Source: Cyanobacteria bacterium REEB459 (GTDB lineage Bacteria > Cyanobacteriota > Cyanobacteriia > Phormidesmidales > Phormidesmidaceae). From it: a stretch of DNA of 64,000 bases. Where the stretch lies: assembly GCA_018970085.1 (NCBI GenBank), contig JAGWXD010000003.1:1-64000 (forward strand), read 5' to 3'. Position numbers and translations under genes: made by a program. A model generated the notes under the pieces. It was not told the DNA's origin, ran no database searches, and saw only the letters and a list, made by a program, of their open reading frames with translations. This document shows, piece after piece, positions 43,483 through 46,622 of this stretch; within the stretch, counting starts at the first letter, position 1; each line of letters opens with the position of its first letter.

Positions 43483-43715
43483 TCATCTGACCCTGAGTAA
43501 CTGGAGATTTCCAGGGCCGACCTAAGAGTAGGACCGCAGTTGCCTAGCTCAATAGGCCAGGTAAAAAGCAGTATTAGCCTTTCATCAAGTAGGGCCTCAG
43601 CTAGCTTGAACGGACTGGCAACGGCTACACCCACCCCTCTTAACCCATCATACCAACCAGGGATCAGAGAAAAGCAGTCTGCTAAGGACCTTAGCCCCAG
43701 CGTTTAAGCATGAGG

Positions 43716-43886
43716 TTAAATCCATCCTAACCAGGATAAAATTCCCTTCCCTGTGACTAACTCAATCACAATAATGGCGATGAACCCCACCATGGCGGCC
43801 CGGCCATTGAGGCGTTCCACATAGTCATTAAAACCCGTGCGGGGGCGATGGATGTTGGGAGTTACCGGTTGCTTAAGATTGGCCAT
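43716..43886 (-). CDS. hli: High-light-inducible / small CAB-like protein
   Basis: A 56-residue protein with one membrane helix and the chlorophyll a/b-binding motif ERLNGRAAMVGFIAIIVIEL, followed by GKGILSWLG. The glutamate, asparagine and arginine of ExxNxR ligate chlorophyll and pair two helices into a dimer. N-terminal part MANLKQPVTPNIHRPRTGFN is typical. HLIPs bind chlorophyll and carotenoid, protect photosystem II assembly intermediates and rise under high light. It lies 138 bases downstream of dnaE-N on the same strand, with its own -10-like TATAAT at 43924-43929. Confidence 0.93.
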   Translation of the reverse strand: MANLKQPVTPNIHRPRTGFNDYVERLNGRAAMVGFIAIIVIELVTGKGILSWLGWI

Positions 43887-43923
43887 ACCACTGATCTAAG
43901 GCTAGAACTATCGTTAGATCTAC

Positions 43924-43929
43924 ATTATA
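43924..43929 (-). promoter_or_regulatory. Likely -10 element of the hli gene
   Basis: TATAAT on the minus strand 38 bases before the HLIP start codon, within the gap after dnaE-N. TTGACA lies 26 bases further upstream, too far for a canonical -35 partner, so an activator-dependent (type 2) promoter is more likely. Confidence 0.5.
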
Positions 43930-44024
43930 GCCCCAGCCATAGTTCAAGGGGGGGTTGTCAAAGCTGGGGAAAAGACTGGTAATTTTTCTGACAATCTTAC
44001 CCGTAAAACCCGACCAATCAGCTA

Positions 44025-46622
44025 TTAGGCGCAGCGTAGCACCCTGGGCCAGGGTGCCGCTGCCTGGTGTAGCTCCAGGCCCTGGGCAAAGATCTGATCA
44101 ATAGCCAACATTTCCCCCGTTGTGGTCATAAATTGGTGATCAGGGGTAGCCCGAATGGTAGTACCGTCATCTAGGCCATACTCAAACACCTCCTGCTCGC
44201 CCCGGTGGTGCCATTGGGCAATGGGTTGACTGTAGACGTAGCCCCGATCATTGACACTGAAAACCCGACAGGGAATGCGTTTAAGGACGATCTCGCCAAT
44301 CGACAAGGGACCATATTCCAGGGTTAACACCTGGGTGTCAGCACTGAGGCAGTACTCGGCAAACTTCACCATCTGGTCCCAGAGTTCCGTCGCCACGGCT
44401 TTTTCCACCCCCCGGGCCACGGCCCCGGTGACAAAGTTCTCCTGGTGCTTGAGCATTTCCGACATTTTCTTCTTACCCATGGCCCGCCGCAGTAGGTCCG
44501 CCTGACCCAGGGAGTAGCCCCCCATGTCCTGGGCAATTTTCATGATCTGCTCCTGGTAGACCATAATGCCGTAGGTTTCACTGAGGATGGGCTTGAGGAT
44601 TTCGTGGGCAAAGTCAATGTTTTCCCGCCCGTGTTTACGGTTAATAAATTTGGGAATGAGTCCGGCATCCAGGGGGCCGGGGCGATAGAGGGCCAGTACG
44701 GAGGAAATATCCTCGAGGCCGTCGGGCTTGAGGTCCCGCACAATCTGCCGCATGCCGGAGGATTCCAACTGGAAGACTCCCCCCAGGTCTCCCCGTTCCA
44801 GGAGTTTGTAGGTGGCCGGATCATCCATGGGCAAGTCGTCGGGGTCCAGGGTTTCACCGTGGTTTACCTCAATTAGCTCCAGGGTTTTCTGGATCATGGT
44901 GAGGTTCCGTAGCCCCAGAAAGTCCATCTTTAACAGGCCAATCGCCTCCACATCCTCCATGTAGTACTGGGTGATCACCTGGCCGTCGTTGTTGCGTTGC
45001 AGGGGAACAATTTCATCCAGGGGATCTTTAGATATCACCACTCCAGCGGCGTGCATACCAAAGGTTTTATTGGTGCCCTCAATCCGCATAGCCATGTCTA
45101 CCCAACGCCGGGTTTGGGGATCGCTGTCGTATTTTTCCTTGAACTCCGGGGCTGGGGTTTCGTCGGAGATCATCACCTTGAGCTTGGTAGGTTTACCCCG
45201 AGCCACCGGAATCAGCTTGGCCATCCGGTCGGACTCGGCGTAGGGAATATCTAACACCCGGGCCACATCCTTGAGCACCGCCTTGGAGGTCATGCGGTTG
45301 AAGGTGATGATCTGGGCCACCCGGTCTTCGCCGTAGCGCCGGGTGACGTACTTGATCACCTCATCCCGCCGTTCAATGCAGAAGTCGGTGTCAATATCGG
45401 GCATGGACTTGCGTTCGGGGTTGAGGAAGCGCTCGAATAGCAGGCCGTGGTGCACCGGGTCAATATTGGTGATACCCATGGCGTAGGCCACCAAAGACCC
45501 CGCCGCCGACCCCCGGCCCGGCCCCACCGGAATGTTATTTTCCCGGGCGAAGCGGATGTAGTCCCACACCACCAGAAAGTAGGTGGGGAACCCCATCTGG
45601 ATCATCATTTCGATTTCGTAGTCCAGGCGATCGCGGTAGTCCTGGGCAATCTCCCCGTAGCTGGCCACCTTCATCCGTTGCACCAGCCCCTCCCGAGCCA
45701 CCGCCGCCATGTAGGCCCCGGCATCGGTAAACCCCTCCGGTAGGGGAAAGTCGGGGATACGGGGCTGGCCCAAAATGCCGGTGTATTCCTCCACCTTGTC
45801 CGCCACCGCCAGGGTATTGGCGATCGCCTCCTCGATTACCGCCGGTTCTAAGTGGTCGCGGAATAGCCGCCGCATCTCATCGGCGGACTTCAGGTACTCA
45901 GTGCCACTGTAGCGCAGGCGCTTGTCCTCCGTCAGTAGCTTGCCGGTCTGGATGCAAAGCAGGGCGTCGTGGGCCTCCACATCGTTACAGGAAATGTAGT
46001 GGGAGTCATTGGTGCAAATAATGGGAATAGCCAGCTCTCGGGCGATCTCCAGGATTTCCACATTCACCAGGCGGTCCTCCGGGGAGCCGTGGTCCTGAAG
46101 CTCCAGGTAGTAATCGTCGCCAAATATATCTTTATACCACTGGGCCACTCGCCGGGCCACATCGGGCCGCTTTTGCAAAATCGCCTGGGGCACCTCGCCC
46201 CCCAGACAGGCGCTGGTCACGATCAGCCCCTGGTGGTACTGCTCCAGTAAGTCCTTGTTGATGCAGGGCCGGGAGAAAATTCCCTTACCCTGCACCCCCT
46301 GCAGGTGGGAGAGGGTGGTGAGTTTTACCAGGTTCTTGTAGCCCTGGGTATTTTTCGCCAGCACCACCTGGTGGTAGCGGGGGCGGCGCTGCTGCTGGGT
46401 GATGTCACCATTGATGATGTACATCTCGTTACCGATGATGGGCTTAATCCCGGCGGCGCTGCACACCTTGATCAGCTCGATCGCCCCGTACATTACCCCA
46501 TGGTCAGTGAGGGCCAGGGCCGGCATCCCCAACTCCTTAGCCCGGGCCACTAGCTGGGGCAATTGGCTGGCACCGTCCAGCAGACTATAGTTGCTATGGA
46601 TATGAAGGCCAACAAAGGACAT
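44025..46622 (-). CDS. dnaE: DNA polymerase III alpha subunit, N-terminal half with split intein
   Basis: 865 residues: 757 of polymerase extein plus 108 of intein. The PHP domain ([32 protein letters not shown]) is at the start; the polymerase core has [14 protein letters not shown] and the catalytic aspartates PDIDTDF; the extein ends KFAEY, the known split point. The chain continues with an intein N-half. A partner gene encoding intein C-half plus the rest of DnaE should lie elsewhere; the two products join by protein trans-splicing. This is the replicative polymerase. No C-half is in the window. Confidence 0.97.
44028..44351 (-). other. Split-intein N-half coding segment (DnaE-N intein)
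   Basis: 108 codons after KFAEY, starting with the nucleophilic cysteine ([20 protein letters not shown]), carrying the block B motif RATPDHQF with the TxxH-type histidine and ending with a short tail ([17 protein letters not shown]) before TAA. The layout matches the naturally split DnaE inteins of cyanobacteria. The tail and several positions differ from the well-studied Ssp and Npu inteins as I remember them. Confidence 0.95.

Follow-up and report, generated by a model that had tools for sequence, protein, structure and literature searches.

A split DnaE intein N-half in a Nodosilinea-like cyanobacterium, and the endonuclease-bearing, cassette-filled, contiguous and intein-free dnaE alleles of its relatives

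Naturally split DnaE inteins of cyanobacteria (Ssp, Npu) are said to have been described by Wu in 1998 and by Caspi in 2003, papers cited in PMC5874633. Fractured genes, in which a free-standing endonuclease lies between the halves of a split intein, were reportedly recognised by Dassa et al. in 2009, mainly in phage-like sequences and often with an enzyme of the Vsr type. Split DnaE inteins have become workhorse tools, and their origin is still treated as open in reviews, which in the passages available describe it as a break in a mini-intein (PMC7765530) or as the splitting of a contiguous intein when the genome was rearranged (PMC5874633). The presence of the DnaE intein is sporadic. According to the accessible parts of two papers, it was found in all compared strains of Thermosynechococcus except one basal MAG (PMC9403480), and cyanobacterial clades with and without it have been explained by a single gain and convergent losses (PMC5029880). 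Mixed presence and absence is therefore already in print, Thermosynechococcus being a within-genus case, and it is likewise seen in the genus studied here; unlike the series of loci described below, the accessible passages of these two papers do not deal with the order of the genes, with contiguous forms or with any endonuclease lying between the halves.

The window, that is, the whole stretch of 64,000 nucleotides analysed, belongs to a genome whose genus is Nodosilinea-like, as judged from named loci (Nodosilinea nodulosa PCC 7104 and others). Its dnaE-N gene (Table 1) encodes 865 residues, recognised as DnaE by Pfam PF07733, PF17657 and PF02811 (PHP, DNA_pol3_alpha, finger), and the whole protein scores 1652.7 bits against the cyanobacterial dnaE-N equivalog NF007079 (cut-off 1525). 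The preliminary description had the polymerase reading into an intein after KFAEY and stopping 108 residues later; the ORF bears this out, as do the matches of the intein part to TIGR01445 intein_Nterm (51.4 bits, cut-off 24.5) and, over residues 1-95, to the Npu DnaE N-intein in PDB 4qfq (E 6.6e-37, 129.3 bits). All these matches lie far above chance. The N-half starts with Cys1 at the FAEY/C site, which we take to be the first-step nucleophile of splicing, and contains a TxxH presumed to be the intein block B motif; C1, T69 and H72 are identical in each of 13 aligned N-halves. No match to the N-half was found in the phage collection searched. With the Ssp and Npu inteins the window intein shares the host protein, the site Y/CFN, TxxH, the +1 Cys, an N-half of about 100 and a C-half of about 36 residues and a terminal Asn after Ser, and it differs from them only in a 13-residue tail and in scattered substitutions. 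As far as its sequence tells, the element belongs with the known split DnaE inteins in every respect considered, and the copy alone, an ordinary representative of an established family, is of low interest. Nothing in the analysis points to the different splicing properties that had been suggested for it.

Table 1. Coordinates of the dnaE-N gene and intein N-half in the window, and of displaced intein N-half (IntN) copies in relatives (positions within the respective loci)
Feature	Position	Strand	Basis
dnaE-N: N-part of DNA polymerase III alpha joined to the intein N-half	44025..46622	-	ORF, Pfam, NF007079 above cut-off
Split DnaE intein N-half, 108 aa, end VLRCA	44028..44351	-	TIGR01445, 4qfq match, alignment
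Cys1 (block A) codon	44349..44351	-	sequence; invariant 13/13
T69-P-D-H72, block B TxxH	44136..44147	-	T69 and H72 invariant 13/13
C-terminal tail, residues 96-108, outside common intein core; genus-conserved	44028..44066	-	alignment, genus comparison
Stop codon closing the N-half	44025..44027	-	sequence
Gap 3' of the N-half, 542 bp	43483..44024		ORF and profile checks
Displaced IntN 3' partial copies, downstream of dnaE-N	L036 814-1032; L037 4286-4503; L039 3931-4024; L038 2945-4691

The full-length DnaE model NF005617 has two matches in the window genome: the one in the window covers model positions 1-760, and the other, on contig C51, covers 755-1168. There, a separate gene (match 83815-85104) encodes a C-half, MAKIISRQ...VASN, which ends in Asn and is followed by CFN and DnaE-C. 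Neither of the findings named beforehand as refuting a naturally split intein was made: the genome search recovered the dnaE-C partner, and among the 102 contigs (99.84% complete) no intact dnaE was found, the window copy being the sole dnaE-N. About 44 kb of its own contig, C100, downstream of dnaE-N lack a C-half, so the halves are truly apart, as is usual in cyanobacteria. The expectation that the partner must lie elsewhere in the genome thus holds here but fails as a general rule, since the halves lie side by side in 17 of 79 loci of relatives. In the window genome, dnaE-C overlaps a convergent gene, pheS-like by reading only, by 11 bp (L003 1492-1502); a potD-like or pentapeptide gene adjoins dnaE in some relatives, unlike this pheS-like neighbour.

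To place the two halves across relatives, 80 named loci were retained from a set of 393, and an N-half was obtained from all except L131; some of these L loci are the same genomes as those carrying G handles (L146 = G027, L117 = G003). No C-half occurs within 9 kb or more in 35 of the 79 loci, while 23 run off the contig and were not classed. The C-half lies downstream on the same strand, separated by other genes or bare spacer, in 11 loci; endonuclease sequence lies between the halves in six and at a contig end in one, and three loci are contiguous. Two loci first considered dispersed, L116 and L118, were dropped from the dispersed count as their contigs end before 9 kb. Side-by-side halves are also found in genomes G012 (8 kb apart), G038, G050, G054 and G056, and in G013 the halves are 15 kb apart on opposite strands. 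The apparent single frames of about 1,600 residues in G010, G056 and G027 turned out not to be contiguous genes: the N-half stops and the C-half restarts later in the same frame. Only about 152 bp, with no ORF of 50 codons, separate the dnaE halves of Leptolyngbya FACHB-36 (L144).

The endonuclease is clearest in Leptolyngbya PCC 7375 (G027/L107) and in G038 (L108), where ORFs of 260 and 252 residues, respectively, overlap the end of dnaE-N and run up to or into the start of dnaE-C. Pfam LAGLIDADG_3 matches both above cut-off (1.6e-9 in G038, 7.5e-11 in PCC 7375); NCBIfam gave no match. Phormidium pseudopriestleyi FRX01 (where the frame ends early), Laspinema olomoucense D3b, Planktothrix UBA8402, G154 and G158 have homologues in the same position, which brings the loci with an endonuclease ORF between the halves to seven. 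Two further copies are broken, by a frame break in Microseira wollei and, on the complete chromosome of Microcoleus vaginatus HSN003, by an interruption with genes that we assume to be transposase-like; the copy of G093 is cut by contig ends. Two acidic motifs, presumably those of LAGLIDADG endonucleases, are invariant in all five aligned ORFs. Among solved proteins, the profile comes closest to I-Tsp061I (2dch, E 8.7e-7), which is also the top fold match of the endonuclease model; the low confidence of that model (pLDDT 61) makes the fold match supporting evidence only. For all the likeness in profile and fold, the present ORFs differ from I-Tsp061I in sitting between the halves of a split intein. 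Like the fractured genes, the relatives have a split intein interrupting a gene and an endonuclease encoded between the intein halves; they differ from them in the host, a cellular cyanobacterial dnaE, and in the enzyme, a LAGLIDADG one. The window genome does not show this organisation, as its halves lie on different contigs and the endonuclease profile has no match there. Few genomes carry the endonuclease: among 388 class genomes searched at E 1e-15, six have a match, which lies at dnaE in five and, in G057, elsewhere and is more distant.

Over eight loci, with HSN003 entered as two joined pieces, divergence of the endonuclease follows that of the intein (Mantel r 0.92, p 0.0006) more closely than that of the C-extein (r 0.60, p 0.008), the pattern that a single unit should give. 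Only C-exteins were used here, because the Laspinema N-extein seems to hold a second intein. By reading only, this apparent second and larger intein follows ...NETYGIL in the Laspinema-type DnaE proteins (L132, L134, L140, L154).

The tail of the N-half had been called divergent and its ending unusual. This is true against characterised inteins such as Npu but not within the genus, where 16 of 18 readable N-halves are also 108 residues long and 14 of the 18 end in LRCA; the nineteenth, from L024, is frame-broken and was left out. In that genome (G024:C245), the frame breaks after 34 residues of the N-half and the dnaE matches lie in four pieces, which may be an assembly error. Beyond about residue 96, the 13 aligned N-halves have no sequence common to all families; being genus-wide and outside the shared intein core, the tail reads as a lineage signature. 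In G038, PCC 7375, FRX01 and D3b, the last IntN codons overlap the first endonuclease codons in another frame, and it is our guess that the window tail could be a vestige of such an overlap.

An N-half match was obtained in 19 of the 26 genus genomes, the window genome included. Six others (G004, G008, G011, G018, G019, G022) have a single intact intein-free dnaE with no second match or stray half, and the seventh, G014, has only a dnaE fragment. In the class, one match spanning the full DnaE model was found in at least 85 of 156 genomes (drawn among those at least 95% complete). The neighbours of the six intein-free genus loci were compared in flanks of up to 1.5 kb. X311 lies upstream of dnaE in five of them, and the order X311-dnaE-potD, with a potD-like gene downstream, is found in three (L044, L047, L048); of the others, L046 has a pentapeptide gene downstream, the sequence of L045 ends too soon and L050 has none of these markers. 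The synteny of the intein-free loci is not uniform. The same neighbours nevertheless frame split alleles: Nodosilinea WJT8-NPBG4 (L122) and ULC186bin1 (L124, the same as G010) have the order X311, dnaE-N, 0.9 kb, dnaE-C, potD-like gene. Against the intein-free L044, L122 carries a 1,336-bp insert precisely where the Tyr(-1) codon meets the Cys(+1) codon, with flanks 91.5-96.3% identical over 60-1,200 bp. In G009, whose halves are far apart, potD still adjoins dnaE-C. X311 adjoins dnaE-N in L116 and L118, the two loci whose contigs end before 9 kb. In the stretches checked of the window genome, neither X311 nor potD was found. Co-conversion at the junction was considered and rejected: the excess of identity near the junction is equally present between intein-free genomes and hence carries no such signal.

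What lies between the halves varies. P64, P80, DUF2513 and a gene for a 226-residue protein occur there, in different subsets, in L120, L122, L124, L141 and L158; the 226-residue protein is PD-(D/E)XK-like (PADLOC PD_DExK, 7.5e-8) and has no Pfam match. In three genomes (G009, locus L126; G001, locus L129; and G013), P80 or the 226-residue gene still stands behind dnaE-N with dnaE-C gone elsewhere. P80 is absent from five of the six intein-free genomes tested. It is an imperfect marker, as it is absent also from four of the nine split ones (G012, G015, G025 and the window genome), and P64-P80 also occur away from dnaE in G001 and G022. The P80 of the intein-free G022 was rejected as a fossil of a split, the surrounding 8.5 kb containing no match to dnaE, the intein, X311 or potD. 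Other genes found in the gap encode Uma2 (G056, G049, L152), PemK (G020), XisI (G012), SLFN_AlbA_2 (L138) and an adenine methyltransferase (L155). Some gaps contain genes of other kinds: G050 has a 683-residue protein without a Pfam match and, by reading, G054 has a large kinase-like and G012 a peptidase-like gene. Neither P80 nor the 226-residue gene was found in the window genome, and the 542-bp gap behind its N-half gave no ORF of at least 60 residues, no endonuclease, none of the spacer genes tested and no tail copy.

Some cassettes leave a trace in the intein itself. Partial copies of the IntN 3' end lie downstream of dnaE-N in G001, G003, G015 and G055 (Table 1), with two more in L137; a tail match in L149, at 26% identity, was dropped from this set. 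In three of the four tabulated loci, toxin-antitoxin or restriction-like genes flank the displaced copy, and the genes between it and dnaE-N are UPF0175 with DUF3368 and ParE in G001, DUF433 with DUF5615 in G003, and Mrr, PIN and DUF4160 in G055. UPF0175 also stands directly 3' of dnaE-N in G013 and G025. Together with what follows it, the displaced copy of G003 gives an unbroken alignment of about 561 nt to the end of IntN and the adjoining downstream sequence in G001 (89%) and L116 (87.5%), and it therefore looks like the original 3' end. In G003, a new cassette bringing its own IntN end would have pushed the original one away; such copies could arise if recombination, for example in the course of transformation, were homologous at one end but illegitimate at the other. 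Insertion with a long target duplication was reportedly described by Nobusato in 2000, a paper cited in PMC3874152, and is another name for the result of such one-end homologous recombination. The likeness lies in toxin-antitoxin or restriction-like genes beside a duplicated target, here the IntN 3' end, and the difference in the target, an intein N-half, and in the older downstream sequence that the displaced copy of G003 keeps.

In the three contiguous loci (L140, L154, L156), one protein contains an intein of 133-137 residues, that is, a contiguous mini-intein. These proteins group with endonuclease-bearing fractured genes on the DnaE-N tree (L134 and L132; L179). At the seam of L156 an out-of-frame ATG lies where the C-half of L179 starts; the match is short, and it is suggestive only of a split gene that may have closed up into a contiguous form. 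The tree is a quick-search tree of one gene with 97 DnaE-N exteins, and its SPLIT states include loci running off the contig. The six locus states need 24 changes on it, with five the minimum possible, and intein-free, side-by-side and dispersed (or off-contig) alleles are intermixed at very short branches within the genus. These counts give no direction, gain and loss being indistinguishable by them.

We consider it likely that the window copy is what a fractured mobile intein becomes late in its history, with its two halves dispersed and splicing in trans. The dnaE-N product would associate with the dnaE-C product from the other contig, and the intein halves would fold together and ligate the two parts into intact DnaE. 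As to origin, a mobile intein of DnaE that carried a LAGLIDADG endonuclease may have fractured in place at the normal dnaE locus into dnaE-N-IntN, a free-standing endonuclease and IntC-dnaE-C. The endonuclease would then have been lost, or replaced in the gap by nuclease and toxin-antitoxin cassettes; rearrangement would next have separated the halves, the window genome being an end stage, and in a few lineages the closing of the gap may have produced a cis mini-intein. What the sequences show directly is the anatomy, the partner, the range of states, the neighbours common to split and intein-free alleles, and the spacer genes that stayed behind dnaE-N in three genomes with dnaE-C elsewhere; that the halves splice, that the element homes and in which direction most steps ran is proposed here from comparison of sequences. 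The window genome's own passage is reconstructed from its relatives, as it lacks the endonuclease, the 226-residue gene and P80 and, in the stretches checked, X311 and potD. In its general form, to which we give a probability of roughly 0.5, this reading takes the split DnaE intein for what remains after the decay of a fractured homing element (IntN, LAGLIDADG endonuclease, IntC) that is still in circulation, and not for an ancient, frozen relic. The element would move as a unit into intein-free dnaE, lose its endonuclease, take up cassettes that displace the IntN end, and then scatter or re-fuse to a cis mini-intein, with the stages coexisting, several of them in one genus.

On another reading, the intein-free genus alleles were never invaded, and the intein-bearing ones owe their intein to a recent conversion by homing, with a relative as the source. 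In its favour, the branches on which intein-free and split species intermingle are very short (mostly 0.004-0.02 changes per column), and P80 is missing from most of the intein-free genomes, although the split genomes without it, the window genome among them, weaken that argument. Yet P80, DUF2513 or the 226-residue gene lie between the halves outside the genus as well (L141, L158), at 62-81% identity, which suggests long residence; none of the six genomes with an endonuclease match in the E 1e-15 search belongs to the genus, and the junction bears no sign of co-conversion. We find recent conversion unlikely. A single ancient split in the cyanobacterial ancestor, with the dispersed state old, side-by-side halves brought together again and intein-free alleles due to simple loss, would agree with the single gain and convergent losses of PMC5029880, as far as its passages go, and with the many loci (35 of 79) lacking a nearby C-half. 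Such a re-approach would, however, have to restore exactly the place between the two neighbours of intein-free dnaE that the halves occupy in L122 and L124, and it sits poorly with an endonuclease at the same place in distant lineages and with spacer genes retained behind dnaE-N in three dispersed genomes; we regard it as distinctly improbable.

That the window copy is a plain member and the variety of arrangements an artefact of draft assemblies and binned genomes seems hardly credible. Many of the loci do come from MAGs or short contigs, 23 of the 79 run off the contig and the G093 endonuclease is cut by contig ends, but the endonuclease lies between the halves in the single-contig G038 and in PCC 7375 and, interrupted, in the complete HSN003 chromosome, and each of the six intein-free genomes has one dnaE match and no stray half. 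The fractured mobile intein remains our preferred reading, and it is the series of intermediates, not the window copy, that gives the finding its interest. The titles, abstract openings and passages available mention neither an endonuclease encoded between the two parts of dnaE nor, for cyanobacteria, a contiguous mini-intein of DnaE at this site; an earlier report of either is possible. Novelty rests with the endonuclease-bearing relatives. The coexistence of endonuclease-bearing, cassette-filled, contiguous, dispersed and intein-free alleles makes the origin and reversibility of the split directly testable, and it bears on deep cyanobacterial phylogeny where the DnaE intein serves as a marker gained only once, as in the accessible parts of PMC5029880. 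Candidate reagents are the endonuclease and the natural mini-inteins of the contiguous DnaE forms (L140, L154, L156).

Elsewhere in the window genome, a ThyX-like gene cut by the end of the stretch (L004, G000:C21:1-1700) also seems to hold a large intein; the thyX and IscB models stay below their cut-offs, and TIGR01443 and TIGR01445 match it above theirs.
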